Positions 27,912-35,853 of a stretch of DNA of 64,000 nt are shown here, piece by piece (the first letter of the stretch is position 1; each line of letters begins with the position of its first letter). The stretch comes from Opitutaceae bacterium TAV5 (GTDB taxonomy: Bacteria > Verrucomicrobiota > Verrucomicrobiia > Opitutales > Opitutaceae). Where the stretch lies: contig CP007053.1 of the NCBI GenBank assembly GCA_000242935.3, positions 62,001 through 126,000 of the forward strand, read 5' to 3'. The translations under genes were made by a program, and so were the position numbers. Under the pieces are notes generated by a model. It ran no database searches. It was not told where the DNA came from and saw only the letters and a program-made list of their open reading frames with translations.

Positions 27912-30896
27912 CTACACCTTCGCCGACAGGCGGACGGTCTCCGTCACCCGGGCCAGCGTCCGGCGCACGATCGCCCGCGGATCGTTTTCCGCCAACACGC
28001 GTGCATCCTCGTGCACTGGCAACCCCGACGCACGGCGTGCGCAGGCGACGGCGTAGTGCAACTGCCAGGAATAATCCTCGCGCACCACCGACGCCGCCTG
28101 CCGCGCCGGTTCCGGCAACGCCACGGTCGAGTGGCCGGGATCACGCACGGCATGCGGAGCGGGCGTGGCCAGCAACCGGTCGAGAATGCCGGCGACACGA
28201 TCGCGTTCCCCTGCGGCCAGCGAGACGCGTTTCGCCAGCGCCTCGCAGGCGAGCGCCACGGCATTGCGCAGGTTGAGCACCAGCGAGGCATCCGCCGCCA
28301 GTTCTTCCAGCAAGGGCAGACTCGCCGGCGTGATGCAGCGCTTCAGGAGCGTGACCGCGGCATACCCGCGCGGCACGTAAAACCACTCCTGCTGCGGCCG
28401 GGTGATGTCGCGGGCCTTGTCGTCCTCGCGCTCCCGGATCGCCCGCCACAGGCGCGGCTCGGCCCGCCCGTCGCCCCACATCGCCAGGATCGCGGCGGCG
28501 CGCCACGAGGCCGTTGCATCGGGTGAAGACAGCAGGCCTCCAATCAGAGTCCGCACTTCACGGGCGGCATCGGAACGCACCGGAGCGAGATTGTCATTAC
28601 CTGCCCGATACAGATGCCAGAGGGCGGCCGTCGCCGGACCGGATTTCACCTCCTCGAGCCAGCGGGAGAGCGGGTCGGGCAGGGTGCGCTCCCGGTCGAA
28701 GAAATCGGGCGTCGCGACATTGCTACCAAAAGACGCCGCGAGGCCGGATGGCGGCGCCAGCTTCACCGCACCCGACGCCAGCAGGTGCGGGCGCAATTTT
28801 TCAAACGGCAGATCGCGACACGCCACCCCGTCGTGCACGGCCAGCGCGCAGCCGGCCCCGGCCGCTTCGCCGATGCGCTGGATGTCGCGCTGCATCCGGA
28901 ACGAATGGTGCGCTTCCTCGCTCACGCCGGCGGCGCGACAGGCCAGCATCACGTTTTTCAGACCGCGGGGGATGAGCATCCGGTAAGGGATTTCACACGC
29001 AAGGCGGCCGTACCACTGCTGGCAAACCCAGACCCAGAACGCGGCTTCGTCGCTCTCGAATTCATAATCGCGGGCATGATTGTCATAATGCCCTCCGGTG
29101 TACCCGATCGTATCCTTAAAACTGCGACGATTGATCAGGTCATCGAGCGTGAGTTCATAATCGGTCACGATATGGCGCGACTGGCGCAGCCCGAGCAGCG
29201 GGGCGATATACGTCGGATGATCGTCGGCGGTGTAGCGCGGTCGAACGTAGTGCGACAGACCGACAAGCCGGGCCCGGGTGAGATCGTTCTCGTCCGTCGG
29301 ATCGCAATAACCCGCGTCGTGGTTGGGGATTTGCATGCGCGCCACCTCGTCTTTGACAGTCGCGCGCCCGGAGGACTGGCTGTAGGCGTGCAGCACGCCG
29401 TCCCCGGCGCGCCCGAGCCGGCAGCTCGCGCCGGCTTTCGCGGCGAGATCGCCGTCGCCCGTCGCATCCACCCAGCCGTTCGCCCGCACGCGGAGCGGTC
29501 CGGCCGGTGTGGAAAACAGGGCGGACCCCACCCCGCCTTCTTTCGTCTCCACGGATACGAGCATGGCATTGTAAACGACTTCGACGCCGGCCTCGGCCAG
29601 CATGTCGTCGAGAACGATTTTTTTGGCCTCCGGATGAAACCCGCCCACCTGCCCGGCCGAGCCGAAGAGCGGCATGATGTCGCGGACCCGGCGATTGATT
29701 TCCTCCTGAAGACCTCCGGGCGTGCCGAAGTAATAGACATGAAACCCGCCGCCCGTGCCGATGCCGCCGGCAAACGGCATGGCTTCGAGCGCCAGCACAC
29801 GAGTTCCCGGGGTAGCACGCGCCGCGGCCATCGCCGCGACCGCCCCGCCGGTGCCGAGCCCGGCGATGGCGACGGAGGCTTCCCGTGGCGCGGGCTTTTT
29901 CTGCCAATCGCCCGCTTCCGCGGCTGTAGGGGCGTCGCTTGCGACGCCCGCCACACGTCTTTGCTGGTCCGTCCTGCATTCGCGGGCTTCGCAAGCGAAG
30001 CCCCTACCTCCGCCCGGCGCAGGCGTCCCGCATGTGGTGGCGCCGGCGGCAAACTTGTCCGCCACGGTTGCACCGCGTCCACCGAGATGCACGACGTTTC
30101 CCGCCAGCCTGGCCAGCTCCGGAGCCGCCCTGTATTTTCTGAACGGAATCACGCTGCCATGCGTAAGCACCGCGCCTTTCAGGTCCGCTTCCGGAATCGC
30201 CGCACGCAGAGCGCGCAGGGCAGGCAACCAGGCGCGTCGCGGTTGTGCGAAATCGCCGGGAAGATCGATCCGCAGGATCTGTTCTCCGGGCCAGAGGCCG
30301 GGATGCCAACGGAGGCGAGCGGCGGCGGGAAGCCCGGCCGGTACCGGGATATCCGAAGCCGGAGACGAGCCGGACGTCCCCAGCCGGAAGGTGATAGTGA
30401 TGACCTGCTCATCGGGCTGCGGTGCCTGCCAGCCGGGAACACACAGCGTCGCCAGTTCGCCCGCATCGGTGGCGTCGATCCATTCGCGAGCCGACAACCG
30501 GTGCAGTCCGGACTTCGTGCCGATGGTCACGGAGCGGATTGAATCATCCACGGCCGTTGCGACGGAAACCGGCACGGCATGGTAAAGAACGGGGATCGCT
30601 TGCGTGCGCAGATGGTCACTGGCGAGGATTTCGGCGATGGCTCCGTCGATCCGCCCGCCGCGCACGGCGCCGTGTGCGTCAAGACGAGCAAGCCATTCCC
30701 GCCAGAGCGGGTCGGCCGATTCGCCGGTATCGGTCGCGAACGACCAGGCGCATTCGGAAACCGGCGACGCATGCCGGTCGAGAAGCAACGCCTTCCGGCC
30801 CGCCCGATGAAGTGCAAGCGTGGCGGCAAAACCGGAGCAACCGGCTCCGAAAATGACAGTATCCCAAGCGGTGTCGTAAATGTCGGCGGGTTTCAT
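27912..30896 (-). CDS. Tandem FAD-dependent oxidoreductase with REP-encoded linker and C-terminal repeat domain
   Basis: A 994-residue protein with two flavoprotein halves. Half 1 has a Rossmann motif GAGCSG at 17-22. Half 2 has GLGTGG at 346-351, followed by LALEAMPFAGGIGTGGGFHV, typical of FAD_oxidored-type dehydrogenases. The linker around residues 297-324 is encoded by a palindromic REP doublet. Residues about 760-990 are Ala/Leu/Arg-rich helices (DAAREVRTLIGGLL, ATASWRAAAILAMWGDGRAE) that resemble HEAT-like repeats. No signal peptide. It follows the esterase/beta-helix gene after 232 nt containing an operator-like palindrome and another REP doublet. It may oxidise sugars or sugar acids released by the pectin-type enzymes (inference). 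Confidence 0.82.
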   Translation of the reverse strand: MKPADIYDTAWDTVIFGAGCSGFAATLALHRAGRKALLLDRHASPVSECAWSFATDTGESADPLWREWLARLDAHGAVRGGRIDGAIAEILASDHLRTQAIPVLYHAVPVSVATAVDDSIRSVTIGTKSGLHRLSAREWIDATDAGELATLCVPGWQAPQPDEQVITITFRLGTSGSSPASDIPVPAGLPAAARLRWHPGLWPGEQILRIDLPGDFAQPRRAWLPALRALRAAIPEADLKGAVLTHGSVIPFRKYRAAPELARLAGNVVHLGGRGATVADKFAAGATTCGTPAPGGGRGFACEARECRTDQQRRVAGVASDAPTAAEAGDWQKKPAPREASVAIAGLGTGGAVAAMAAARATPGTRVLALEAMPFAGGIGTGGGFHVYYFGTPGGLQEEINRRVRDIMPLFGSAGQVGGFHPEAKKIVLDDMLAEAGVEVVYNAMLVSVETKEGGVGSALFSTPAGPLRVRANGWVDATGDGDLAAKAGASCRLGRAGDGVLHAYSQSSGRATVKDEVARMQIPNHDAGYCDPTDENDLTRARLVGLSHYVRPRYTADDHPTYIAPLLGLRQSRHIVTDYELTLDDLINRRSFKDTIGYTGGHYDNHARDYEFESDEAAFWVWVCQQWYGRLACEIPYRMLIPRGLKNVMLACRAAGVSEEAHHSFRMQRDIQRIGEAAGAGCALAVHDGVACRDLPFEKLRPHLLASGAVKLAPPSGLAASFGSNVATPDFFDRERTLPDPLSRWLEEVKSGPATAALWHLYRAGNDNLAPVRSDAAREVRTLIGGLLSSPDATASWRAAAILAMWGDGRAEPRLWRAIREREDDKARDITRPQQEWFYVPRGYAAVTLLKRCITPASLPLLEELAADASLVLNLRNAVALACEALAKRVSLAAGERDRVAGILDRLLATPAPHAVRDPGHSTVALPEPARQAASVVREDYSWQLHYAVACARRASGLPVHEDARVLAENDPRAIVRRTLARVTETVRLSAKV
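29926..30007. repeat. Intragenic REP doublet (BIME-like)
   Basis: Two 25-nt units in opposite orientation, 29926-29950 and 29983-30007, both start GTAGGGGC from the outside. They match at 23 of 25 positions. Each unit is itself a perfect hairpin: GGCGTCGC-TT-GCGACGCC in one and GGGCTTCGC-AA-GCGAAGCCC in the other. The two differences are compensatory within each unit's own stem. This is the layout of REP doublets. It lies in frame inside the flavoprotein gene, between its two Rossmann halves. Confidence 0.85.
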
Positions 30897-31014: not shown

Positions 31015-31108
31015 GGGACGTGGCGCGGGCGTCTCGCCCGCAGACGGCGCGGAGCGCCGCCTGTAACAGGGGTCTCGCAGAGCGGGCGAGACGCCCGCGC
31101 CACGTCCC
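31015..31108. repeat. REP-like doublet with perfect 27-bp inverted arms
   Basis: Arms 31015-31041 and 31082-31108 are perfect inverted copies (starting GGGACGTGGCGCGGGCGTCT). Each contains its own hairpin GCGGGCG-TCT-CGCCCGC. The 40-nt centre holds a further GC-rich stem. The element lies between the esterase/beta-helix stop codon and the flavoprotein gene, so it may terminate or stabilise the upstream transcript. It belongs to a different sequence family from the GTAG-headed elements. Confidence 0.8.
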
Positions 31109-31128: not shown

Positions 31129-33618
31129 TCAGGGGCGGGGAAGCACCGGCATCGGTTCGCCCCAGGACAGGGCGCCCGCATCCGGAGCGGTTCCCTTGAA
31201 ATAGCCTGGCGAACATCCGGGAAGCGGCCGCTGCAAATGACTCGACAGGTCTGCTCCACGCCCGCGAGCCGGACTGTTTTCGAGCAGGCTGAAATCACCT
31301 TCGCGGGCGTTCGCAAAACCGGGAGCGAGTTCGGTCCACAGGCTGTTTTTGTCGATGCCGAGCCGGTGCGCCCGAGCTTCGCCTTGCGACCAGCGGGGAT
31401 CGGTGCCGCTGCGGGTATACACATTGTAGTCGGCCTTCCAGTTGGGTTCCACCGAACCGCCGGCGGGTGCATTCAGGAACCAGTAGGCAGAATTCCAGAG
31501 GTTGTTGAAATAATGATACTCCGGGACACCGATTCCGGTGACTTTGTTGGACACGATGGCGGCGGCGGATGAAGCGAAGGTGTTGTGGTAAATGTAAACA
31601 GCGGCGGGCTTGAGCGGAACATTGCCCCCGAAATTGCGCACATCCTCCCGGTTTTCGAAAAAAATGTTCCGGTTGATGTAAAGCGGCCCTGTCGTTGGAG
31701 CCTTGATACGGATGCCGACAAAACAGCGGCTGACGATGTTGTCATGCCATTGGGTGTCGATCTGGGCTCCGGCGGTTTCGAGGCCGTCGTCGCACATGAT
31801 GTCGATGCGGTTGTGATGGACGCGCACGCCGCGGTCCCTGTCGCCAAAGGGGCGGGCGCTGATGCCGTCCCAATGATCGTGGATGTAGTTGTCGTGAATA
31901 TCGTGCCCGCCGGTGTTTTCCCGGATCTCAATGCCGTAGCGGTCCAGCCATCCGCCACGTTTGTGAACACGCCAGTGATCGGTGGCGCCGGGGCGGGCGT
32001 GCGGGTTGGCCCCGTCGTAGGGATCCCAGGAGATACGATTACGACGGACGATGGCAGCGGTGGCGTTGGCGTGCAGAAGAATCCCGAAATCGATCGCCCT
32101 GATGGTGTTGTTTTCGAGAATGGCGGCGGCGGCGTTTGTCACACGAATGCCGGCGGCGGCACGACGGAATTCCAGACCACGCACGATGCAGTGGCCGGTG
32201 TTGTCGATCTTTACGAGCGCATCGTTTTTGTCGCGGGAAGAAAGGGTGAGTGCAAGCGTGTGGGGGTCCTTGTCGCCGCGCACGCGGAGGAGGAGTTGCC
32301 TGTGTTCCGGGAGATAGATGGCGAGCGCGCCGACACCACCGTTCCAGCCGGATTCGCCGACTCCGTTGGCAAGGAGACGGGGCCATTCCCAGATTTCGCC
32401 CATTGGCGCCTTGCCGGGACGGGTCATGCTCTCGCGAAGCATGACGATGACTTTCTCGTCGAGCGTGACGGTGAACACGGGTTCGGAGACGGCGAGGCGG
32501 TAAACACCGGGCGCGATGTCGGGCGCAGGCTCCCAGGGTTGGGGACCGGAGCGACTGCCATCGAGAATGGCGCCGGGTTCTCCTTCGAGCGTGACAGGAT
32601 TGTCAGGTGTTCCCGATCGACGAAAGGTGACGTATTCGTGATAAATGCCGGGATGCACGCGAACCGTGTCTCCGGGGCCGGCAAGATCGAGGGCGGCCTG
32701 GATGCTGGCAAAGGGCGCATCCACCGAGCCGGAGGCGGCTCCGGCAACAGCGGTGTCTCCGGTTTGCCGCGAGACGTGCAGGACACGACCGGTACCGGCA
32801 ATCGGCGTCCTGGCGGACTCCGGAGTGGGAGGAGAACCGGCGCCGTCACCTGCGATCGCCGTTTTGGAGACAAGCTCCGGAGCGATGCCGGCCAGGCGGC
32901 GGGCGACAAGACGGGCGAGCTCGCGAGCGCCGGCTTCGGTGAAGTGAGTGCGGTCACCGCGTCCGGTGCGCCCGGGATGCTCAAGGTTGTTCACCGTGAA
33001 GGCGGCGGAACCTTCTTCGCCGAGCTTTTCAAAAAGGTCTCCACTGTCCGCATACAGATCGACGAGAGGGGCGCCGCTTTCGCTGGCGACAGCGTGCATC
33101 GCTTCGGAATACGTAGCCAGCTCCGTGGTGAGACGACCGGAGCGAAACATGCGGCGATGGGGAGGAGTCACGAGAACAGGCATCGCTCCGGAGGCGCGGG
33201 CTTCGTCGATGTAGCGCCGGAGATTTTCCCGGAAGCCGGTGGCGGCGTCGGTGGCTTCAGGTTTTTCTTTCGGGTGGGAATCGTTGTGCCCGAATTGTAT
33301 GAGGACATAGGCGGGTTTTGCAGCAAGGGCGCGCTGCCAGCGTTCGGCAGGAAACGTTTTGGTGCTGGCACCGCCTTTGGCTTCGTTCCGGATGCGCACA
33401 CCGGGAGCGAGAAATTCCGGCAGTATCTGTCCCCAACCGCGGCGGGGTGAAGCGTCGCTGTAGTTGCAAACCGTGGAGTCGCCGATGATGGAGATGACCG
33501 ATCCTGGCCCAGGCGCCGCTCCGGTTGCAGTGTCGGCAGCGACAACGGCGGAAGTCGCAGCAATGACGGCCAACACGCCGGCTATGGCGGGGAAGTGGCG
33601 TTCGATAAATCGGTGCAT
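31129..33618 (-). CDS. Secreted SGNH esterase (CE12-like) fused to a right-handed parallel beta-helix
   Basis: An 829-residue exported protein with a signal peptide at 1-28. Residues about 40-235 are an SGNH hydrolase: GDST with nucleophile S48, GHND at 110-113, and DRTHF with D222 and H225. This is the layout of rhamnogalacturonan acetylesterases (CE12). From about 280 onwards comes a pectate-lyase-like beta-helix (FASIQAALDLAGPGDTVRVH, ILENNTIRAIDFGILLHANA, HDIHDNYIHDHWDGISARPF). It would remove acetyl groups and bind or cleave a pectic backbone with the same polypeptide. It ends the pseudopilin/PEP-CTERM operon, 26 nt after the PEP-CTERM gene. Confidence 0.87.
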   Translation of the reverse strand: MHRFIERHFPAIAGVLAVIAATSAVVAADTATGAAPGPGSVISIIGDSTVCNYSDASPRRGWGQILPEFLAPGVRIRNEAKGGASTKTFPAERWQRALAAKPAYVLIQFGHNDSHPKEKPEATDAATGFRENLRRYIDEARASGAMPVLVTPPHRRMFRSGRLTTELATYSEAMHAVASESGAPLVDLYADSGDLFEKLGEEGSAAFTVNNLEHPGRTGRGDRTHFTEAGARELARLVARRLAGIAPELVSKTAIAGDGAGSPPTPESARTPIAGTGRVLHVSRQTGDTAVAGAASGSVDAPFASIQAALDLAGPGDTVRVHPGIYHEYVTFRRSGTPDNPVTLEGEPGAILDGSRSGPQPWEPAPDIAPGVYRLAVSEPVFTVTLDEKVIVMLRESMTRPGKAPMGEIWEWPRLLANGVGESGWNGGVGALAIYLPEHRQLLLRVRGDKDPHTLALTLSSRDKNDALVKIDNTGHCIVRGLEFRRAAAGIRVTNAAAAILENNTIRAIDFGILLHANATAAIVRRNRISWDPYDGANPHARPGATDHWRVHKRGGWLDRYGIEIRENTGGHDIHDNYIHDHWDGISARPFGDRDRGVRVHHNRIDIMCDDGLETAGAQIDTQWHDNIVSRCFVGIRIKAPTTGPLYINRNIFFENREDVRNFGGNVPLKPAAVYIYHNTFASSAAAIVSNKVTGIGVPEYHYFNNLWNSAYWFLNAPAGGSVEPNWKADYNVYTRSGTDPRWSQGEARAHRLGIDKNSLWTELAPGFANAREGDFSLLENSPARGRGADLSSHLQRPLPGCSPGYFKGTAPDAGALSWGEPMPVLPRP

Positions 33619-33644: not shown

Positions 33645-35012
33645 TCAGGCCCGAAGGGCGGCGAGTTTGCGCCGGAATGCCGCGAACCCGAGAATGGCGA
33701 GCGCACCGGACAGGGTCGTGGCCGCAGGCTCGGGAACGGCTGCGCCGATAGTAAAACCGCTGGTGAGTTCGGTGAACGAAAGCGTTCCGCTTTGGCCGGT
33801 TGCTCCAAAATTGATGTAGGAGACAGTGGCATCCTGGAAAGCATTTGATCCGGCGATGGAGAGCAATCCGGTGTAGTTGTTGTTGAATACGCCTGTGTTT
33901 CCAAAGTCGATGGTGAAGGTGGCTTCTCCCGCGCCGGAGAGGCGAAGGTCACCGGTAATGTTCAGGGATGACACAGCGTCGAGGTTGAAGCCGATAATCG
34001 CGCCGCTTTCCATGTCCATGTTTCCCAGCGAAAGCGCATTGCCCGCGACAAAAGTGGCTCCGGCTGAAACGGCCAGATCGCCCTCCGGCGCGAGGCTGCC
34101 GCTGACAACCAGAGTTCCCGCCTCGACAGTTGTCCCGCCGGTATGCGTGAGCGAGCCGGAGAGTTCCTGCCTGCCTGTTCCGGTCTTCAGGAGAGCGAGT
34201 GTGCCGCCAGCGCCGTCGGTTAATGTTGTCGTGGCGGTGAAGGTGGTGGCGGCGTCGGTGTCGATAACAAGGGTCACGGCGTGGACGCCCGTAGAGGCGG
34301 CGGTCTTCGAGGCGGCGATTACAGCGACGGCTCCCGTGCTCTGGGAGATGCTCTTGACCGTCACAGTCCGGGTGGTGGCGGCCCCGGTACTGTTGACGAG
34401 ATTGATCGTCCGGCTGCTTGTCCCGCCGCCGGTGAAGTTCACCTGACCGAGGCTGTAGTCGCTGTTCACATTCAGGTCGATGGCCGCGCTGCCGTTGCTG
34501 GTGCCCATCGTGACCGCGCCGACAGAAAGGCTTTTCAGGGCAGTCGCCGCGGTGGTGCTTCCAAACCGGTATGTTCCGGTTGTCAGCGAGAGAGAGGCGA
34601 TCGTCAGGTCGAGCGTCGAGTCGCCGTCACCGGCAAACAGCACGGTGTTGCTGTTGGCCGATTTTGTGAGTGTCCCCGCGAGGGCGAATGTGCGCGCTCC
34701 GCCGGCGGCGCGCAACGTCAGCGTAGTGCCGCCACTGCCGGCGACTGACAGATTGTTGATGGAGAAATCGCCGTTGAGATTGACCGCGGTGGAAGAGCTC
34801 AGCCCGGAGAATACGGCATTGTCGGTATCGGCGGCGGGAGCGCCTTCGGAGGGAGACCATCTGGCATTGGCGCCCGTCCAGTCGTGGCCGGTGGTTCCGG
34901 TTGTCGTCCAGGTGTAGTCGGTGGCGCGGGCGAACGGGCCGGCGGTGGCAAGGATGGCAAGCAGGCCGGACGCGACGATGGCGGGGATCAGGGCATGTTT
35001 TTGTCGTTTCAT
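33645..35012 (-). CDS. PEP-CTERM protein with autotransporter-type beta repeats
   Basis: A 455-residue exported protein (MKRQKHALIPAIVASGLLAI; cleavage likely after ATAGPFARA). The body is rich in Thr/Ser/Gly beta repeats (DYTWTTTGTTGHDWTGANAR, GGTTVEAGTLVVSGSLAPEG). The C-terminal sorting signal is PEPAATTLSGALAILGFAAF, then RRKLAALRA. It sits between a pseudopilin gene and the esterase/beta-helix gene, all on the minus strand with short gaps (85 and 26 nt). Probably an exosortase-processed surface component. Confidence 0.88.
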   Translation of the reverse strand: MKRQKHALIPAIVASGLLAILATAGPFARATDYTWTTTGTTGHDWTGANARWSPSEGAPAADTDNAVFSGLSSSTAVNLNGDFSINNLSVAGSGGTTLTLRAAGGARTFALAGTLTKSANSNTVLFAGDGDSTLDLTIASLSLTTGTYRFGSTTAATALKSLSVGAVTMGTSNGSAAIDLNVNSDYSLGQVNFTGGGTSSRTINLVNSTGAATTRTVTVKSISQSTGAVAVIAASKTAASTGVHAVTLVIDTDAATTFTATTTLTDGAGGTLALLKTGTGRQELSGSLTHTGGTTVEAGTLVVSGSLAPEGDLAVSAGATFVAGNALSLGNMDMESGAIIGFNLDAVSSLNITGDLRLSGAGEATFTIDFGNTGVFNNNYTGLLSIAGSNAFQDATVSYINFGATGQSGTLSFTELTSGFTIGAAVPEPAATTLSGALAILGFAAFRRKLAALRA

Positions 35013-35097
35013 GATGAATACAGGATGAGCGGTTGATGTGTGGACGGCCTGGTGGCAAGAGGTGGACGGGAGGGACGCAACCTGCGGGAGGGGGCGG

Positions 35098-35853
35098 TCA
35101 AAGATCGGCGTCCTTGACGTCTGTTCCGAGGGCTTTGACGTGACCATCGAAGAAAAGGTAGTTGCGTTTGTCGCCATGCACAGGATTCGGAGCAGTGGGT
35201 TTCAGGCCGGAATCCCTGCGCTCGTCGGCATCGCGCATCACGTAGGTACGCGCGGGGTTGGCGATTCGCTGAAGTTTCAGGGAAGGTATCGCCTTGCTGG
35301 TGTTTCCGAACGGGCGGCTGTCCGCGCCATCGACATCGTTGGCCGTAAGTTTGTAAATGGCTGCGTTGGTGTTGCTGACGAGTTCAGGGCATTCGACAGC
35401 GAAAGCGGGACAAATAAACGACCGCACCACGACAGGAGTGTTGTCCTCCGGGAGGGGCACCGCCATGCAGGGAGCAAGATGCCGGGCCAGGGTGTTCCAG
35501 CCACCGCCAAACGAAATACAGGCAGGCGAACGCGTCGCGAGGGCAACATGGCCCGCGTTTTTCTGCCCGGGCAGATTGCCGTTATTTTCCTCCGCGTAGA
35601 GGAGCAGGGCCACACCGATCTGGCGCAGATTGGACTGGCAGTTGGCCGAGCGGGCCAGTTGCCGCACCTTGCCAAGCCCCCCCAGGACAAGAGCGGCAAG
35701 GATCCCGATGATGGCAATGACAGCCAGCAGTTCGATGAGCGTGAAAGCAGCCGTACGCGCGATCCTTCGGGGAGATCTGCCGGATGGCGTCAGGCGTTGC
35801 ACCGCACGAGGAAGACGGTGCCGGAGTCGTGTCGGTAATGAGGATGGGGTCAT
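35098..35853 (-). CDS. Pseudopilin-like protein with H-X9-DG motif (regulator 1 module)
   Basis: A 251-residue protein from the ATG at 35853 (MTPSSLPTRL). The long basic leader ends [20 protein letters not shown], with Ala rather than Gly at -1 and Glu at +5. The C-terminal part has VHGDKRNYLFFDGHVKAL (H-X9-DG). It is the first gene of an operon with a PEP-CTERM protein and the esterase/beta-helix protein, and is divergent from LacI-type regulator 1 across a palindromic operator. Confidence 0.88.
   Translation of the reverse strand: MTPSSLPTRLRHRLPRAVQRLTPSGRSPRRIARTAAFTLIELLAVIAIIGILAALVLGGLGKVRQLARSANCQSNLRQIGVALLLYAEENNGNLPGQKNAGHVALATRSPACISFGGGWNTLARHLAPCMAVPLPEDNTPVVVRSFICPAFAVECPELVSNTNAAIYKLTANDVDGADSRPFGNTSKAIPSLKLQRIANPARTYVMRDADERRDSGLKPTAPNPVHGDKRNYLFFDGHVKALGTDVKDADL

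Follow-up and report, generated by a model that had tools for sequence, protein, structure and literature searches.

An in-frame GTAG-REP doublet in the linker of a two-halved flavoprotein gene of Opitutaceae bacterium TAV5

REPs are not confined to the spaces between genes. According to a 2013 paper on GTAG-REPs (PMC3733652), REPs are present inside ORFs in several species, and most of the GTAG ones are in Opitutus terrae, a member of the Opitutaceae. The intragenic GTAG-REP dimers described there encode 20-30 amino acids, and flexible linkers or loops were suggested as harmless sites for them. Table 1 of that paper gives stems of 5-13 bp and loops of 2-20 nt, and dimer spacers are put mostly at 20-100 bp. 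It also records that most O. terrae GTAG-20 elements are headed by GTGG, and that two Xanthomonas species carry different REPs at roughly one position of recB. RAYT (Y1) transposase genes are said in it to be "often" found with GTAG-REPs, as a usual companion that is not required. In addition, the Rickettsia palindromic elements of Ogata et al., as outlined in PMC10969869, are about 150 bp long, encode a conserved peptide and are found in frame in unrelated genes. In-frame GTAG-REP dimers are already known, including in the same bacterial family, and the doublet described below is another example; since they have been published for the Opitutaceae, it leaves unchanged what is understood about REPs and about gene fusion. 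The premise of an earlier, sequence-only reading of this DNA, that REPs are normally extragenic, was too strong given these published intragenic elements. No paper combining Geminisphaera and REP was found in the one literature library searched.

The window, which is the whole stretch of DNA analysed (64,000 nucleotides), comes from the termite-gut strain Opitutaceae bacterium TAV5, where it spans 62,001-126,000 of the main contig. Two GTAG-headed units in inverted orientation had been claimed at 29926-30007, and the pattern search bears this out. Unit 1 (GTAGGGGCGTCGCTTGCGACGCCC, 29926..29949, plus strand) is of the GTCG type and unit 2 (GTAGGGGCTTCGCTTGCGAAGCCC, 29984..30007, minus strand, inverted relative to unit 1) of the TTCG type; each of these 24-nt units consists of GTAG, a 9-bp stem and a 2-nt loop, so that both fall within the definition of a GTAG or GYAG head, a 5-13 bp stem and a 2-20 nt loop. 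With the spacer (29950..29983) the doublet totals 82 bp, and translation of the gene confirms that it lies in frame, as residues 297-324 of a 994-residue flavoprotein. At up to three mismatches the GTAG-REP pattern matches these two units and no others in the whole window, where 0.02 would be expected by chance and none of 100 shuffles reached two. The inverted arms of the doublet are 32 nt long and 88% complementary, and the stretch folded as DNA gives z = -6.3. A chance palindrome is ruled out by the shuffles, by this DNA fold and by the multicopy status of the element.

Compared with the intragenic GTAG-REPs of PMC3733652, the window doublet is alike in its GTAG head, in stem and loop lengths within range, in its head-to-head arrangement and in the approximately 27 amino acids that it encodes. 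It is unlike them in genus and gene, in the comparison made here with orthologues whose linker is empty, and in that different REP families are present in one linker of two sister species. It resembles a BIME (a term used in PMC3733652) as an inverted REP pair whose spacer is partly conserved among copies, but is located within a gene. As with the Rickettsia palindromic elements (PMC10969869), palindromes have been inserted in frame within genes, although the window doublet is an 82-bp REP pair with four of six reading frames open. A conserved peptide, as in the Rickettsia elements, was not found, the first unit being translated in different frames in the two in-gene doublets compared, as RGFACEAR in the window and VGASLATPA in the TPS-domain protein L016. 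An element purpose-built for coding was considered and dropped, given the open frames of the doublet and the 103 of 138 frames open over all 23 TAV5 sites, a raw count which includes single units.

The GTAG-REP is a dispersed family of high copy number. At up to two mismatches, 38 units are present in the TAV5 genome (none with the backward control pattern) and 210 in Geminisphaera colitermitum TAV2 (one with the control), TAV2 being the only other genome of the genus compared. The 38 TAV5 units cluster at 23 sites, 13 of which are spaced inverted pairs with unit starts 56-64 bp apart, leaving 32-40 bp between units; head-to-head dimers with spacers inside the published 20-100 bp are therefore found at 13/23 sites. 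Heads are GTAG or GCAG in 36 of the 38 matches, and GTCG and ACAG in the remaining two. The inner 30 nt of the window spacer matched seven of the 12 other doublets better than all of 300 shuffles, and the other five showed no sharing at this standard. Since the spacer is common to part of the other doublets, the mobile unit is probably the entire 82-bp pair. Near-identical doublets are dispersed with a partly common spacer, and orthologous linkers lack the doublet; no pair of filled and empty sites was seen at base resolution, and as the TAV2 linker is itself crowded with repeats and 82 bp does not divide by three, the empty site cannot be reconstructed exactly. Two of the doublets, L008 and L020, are alike past both ends (TGATGTTRCGCACTCC... 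and ...CCGCGTAACATC), and the REPs may lie there within a larger repeat.

The gene that carries the doublet (27912..30896, minus strand) encodes a flavoprotein (oxidoreductase) of 994 amino acids, in which two homologous FAD-type halves are followed by a C-terminal extension. As the sequence-only reading had it, the doublet sits between two FAD-type halves, flanked by matches to TIGR02032 and PF12831, and both halves keep a GxGxxG dinucleotide-binding motif (GAGCSG at residues 17-22 and GLGTGG at 346-351). The PF12831 (FAD_oxidored) profile has a cut-off of 27 bits and scores 249.5 here (E 9.8e-74; best stretch residues 559-705). The TIGR02032 match at residues 11-45 reaches 29.1 bits, far under its cut-off of 158.8, and Rossmann-type profile matches in the first half are weak, despite its homology to the second half. 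The halves align with one another at E 8e-7, and this points to an ancient duplication with fusion as their origin. Among solved structures there was one short match, in which a thioredoxin-reductase-related protein aligns with residues 11-84 (E 9.3e-5). The AlphaFold model has a mean pLDDT of 49.9, with linker blocks at 26-29, and since the model is poor overall the low linker values are no usable evidence of disorder. The 994-residue frame is uninterrupted in an assembly of two contigs (7,417,673 bp), whose main contig of 7,317,842 bp has the same size as the published TAV5 chromosome (PMC4358385); a sequencing error that breaks the frame at the doublet is therefore unlikely.

Comparison of orthologues, proposed earlier as the way to tell a REP-free fusion from two separate genes, yielded the REP-free fusion. 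Four orthologues that belong to three further genera of the Opitutaceae (L033, L068, L069 and L070; 57-61% identity) are each a single open frame, and none of the REP-A, REP-B or REP-C patterns was found anywhere in these four loci. Between shared anchors the linker measures 45 amino acids in all four, versus 66 in the window protein and 68 in TAV2, and 53 in L037, a more distant homologue. The proposals that a REP insertion fused or bridged two domains, or that an intergenic REP became coding through read-through, are contradicted by these REP-free single frames with a 45-residue linker, and creation of the fusion by the REP is ruled out on the same ground. As the REP-free orthologues are already one frame, the fusion predates the REP and, judged by sequence comparison, is much older than the GTAG-REP insertion. 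Before this comparison L032, L034, L035 and L036 were dropped because they duplicate L067, L069, L070 and L068, respectively (their alignment figures were identical), L038, which was cropped to its second half for alignment, was left out (frame of 978 amino acids, with 323 residues ahead of the match), and L039-L060 were excluded. The identity of L032, a locus of genome G005, with L067 from the named TAV2 record is the reason for calling that genome TAV2.

When 273 genomes of the order were searched with a profile, fused homologues came up in other families also. Twenty-five non-self homologous frames of at least 700 amino acids were aligned, a minimum that would hide split genes; these were the four REP-free orthologues, TAV2, L037 and 19 from the 273-genome search. 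The second-half profile matched all 25 and the first-half profile 24, L089 being the sole miss. In the 273-genome search itself L086-L091 had been matched by the second half alone; five of these six were matched later by the first-half profile, weakly (E 9e-12 to 3.3e-7, 27 sequences), and L089 was not. The match of L079 in that search crosses one TGA, and its 941-residue frame contains both halves. By a second counting scheme the linkers of the 19 distant homologues span 38-72 amino acids, with 63 in the window protein and 42 in the four REP-free orthologues. Seven of the 19, which may or may not carry REPs, have linkers of 67-72 amino acids, longer than that of the window, so that a long linker does not by itself prove an insertion.

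Other REP families have left traces in the same linker. At 29885..29915 (minus strand) lies a diverged copy of REP-B (GTGGCGCGGGCGTCTCGCCCGC), a family with 219 matches in TAV5 and 337 in TAV2; 19 of 22 bases are kept and the loop, originally of 3 nt, has lengthened to 12 nt. The spaced pattern describing this copy, for which 0.00 matches are expected, was composed after the sequence was seen, and when the plain REP-B consensus is aligned locally in the flank of the doublet, p is 0.008 relative to segments drawn at random from the window. A weaker, possible REP-B remnant at 30016..30031 (plus strand) agrees at 15 of 16 positions with a GTCCCGC variant and also resembles REP-C. In the TAV2 orthologue a perfect REP-B occupies the place and orientation equal to 29885-29915, just before the second GxGxxG, and the simplest reading of REP-B at one place and orientation in both species is that it was inserted before they split; the insertion probably predates the TAV5/TAV2 split. 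Besides REP-B, the TAV2 linker holds one perfect copy of REP-C (GCGCAGGCATCCTGCCTGC), a third family (the two together at L067 4936-5021; G005:C31:9984-10071). The TAV2 linker has no GTAG doublet, and of the two species' linkers TAV5's alone has it. With a REP-C in the TAV2 linker and the doublet in the TAV5 linker only, it is probable that different REP families were added separately to one linker after the species split. Across the genomes REP-C has 82 matches in TAV2 versus one in TAV5, which looks like an expansion specific to the TAV2 lineage. A perfect inverted pair of REP-B units is also present upstream of the flavoprotein gene (31015..31108; 27-nt arms, 40 nt apart), between this gene and the next open frame at 31129-33618. 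Further along, the protein at 33645-35177 has a C-terminus that we take to resemble a PEP-CTERM sorting signal.

Between TAV5 and TAV2, identity is 71% in the first half of the protein, 86% in the second and 37% in the linker (54 aligned residues). The corresponding dN/dS values are 0.136, 0.104 and 0.549, all rough because synonymous differences are near saturation. Both halves look to be under purifying selection and in this respect look functional, in keeping with the earlier suggestion of a functional fusion. If the shared REP-B is there by descent, constraint persisted after at least one REP insertion, and the gene has probably stayed open and selected following at least one such event. 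Since the GTAG doublet may have arrived only after TAV5 and TAV2 separated, dN/dS is no test of selection following that insertion, for which the doublet may be too young.

We consider it highly probable (roughly 0.9) that an 82-bp GTAG-REP doublet was inserted into the pre-existing linker of an anciently fused protein, and that it was kept since it was in frame and tolerated. A Y1-type (RAYT-like) transposase acting in trans would most likely have copied the doublet into the linker, and a small indel would have accompanied the insertion, as 82 is not a multiple of three. The linker would be translated in vivo and flexible, and the in-frame insertion would be tolerated with a near-neutral effect on the protein. 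The RAYT association described for GTAG-REPs in PMC3733652 was not seen at the six Y1_Tnp matches in TAV5, none of which has an exact-pattern REP-A or REP-B within its surrounding locus of 3.2-3.3 kb. That an intergenic REP between two genes for FAD proteins was turned into coding sequence by read-through, the REP making the fusion, would account for the position of the doublet where two homologous halves meet; REPs are mostly intergenic, and many genomes have shorter relatives of the second half, at lower identity, whose frames run to about 440-550 amino acids. However, the four REP-free orthologues are continuous fused frames and both halves are present in 24 of the 25 aligned homologous frames (which, at 700 amino acids or more, would conceal split genes), and this origin is scarcely credible.

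Retention of the hairpin for a role at the RNA level, either as a translational pause between sequentially folding domains or in attenuation, draws on the folding of the linker RNA, which is far better than that of shuffled sequences (-99.9 kcal/mol, z = -4.7; 0/200 shuffles as good), and on TAV2 having other palindromes at this position. Such folding is expected of any REP, however, the REP-free orthologues do without a hairpin, and the palindromes differ between TAV5 and TAV2, so this role is considered improbable. There is likewise only a small chance that the linker is a recurrent landing site at which unrelated palindromes were recruited in parallel, the mRNA hairpin (as a translational pause) and not the peptide being what was kept. 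The uptake of several repeats by the linker could also reflect a pseudogene in decay, from which selection would no longer remove insertions, but the 994-codon frame is still open through several insertions and dN/dS of the halves against TAV2 is 0.10-0.14, which makes decay very improbable. Under insertion into an existing linker, REPs have served as raw material for a linker, with REP-free fused orthologues, an older and probably shared insertion and later lineage-specific ones, and the case shows that a repeat found between two domains is not necessarily what joined them.

The TAV5 genome contains further candidates for GTAG-REPs within genes. Frames of at least 120 amino acids run across the REP at 19 of the 23 sites (none at L003, L004, L008 and L010), and the Pfam scan covered 20 chosen spanning frames from 13 sites together with the window protein, leaving out L022, L026, L027, L030 and L072. 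Matches among the 13 sites were obtained for L015 (APH), L016 (TPS), L017 (GH115) and L071 (GH35); L015 and L017 were kept out of the in-gene count, as their genes may truly start only downstream of the REP. Two more in-gene GTAG-REPs are supported. In the GH35 (beta-galactosidase) enzyme L071, a unit at G000:C1:550492-550515 corresponds to residues 500-508, and the region bearing it is 39 residues longer than in the orthologue from G046. In the TPS-domain protein L016, a doublet at G000:C1:6489103-6489185 lies in frame as residues 298-325, directly after the TPS domain (45-290).
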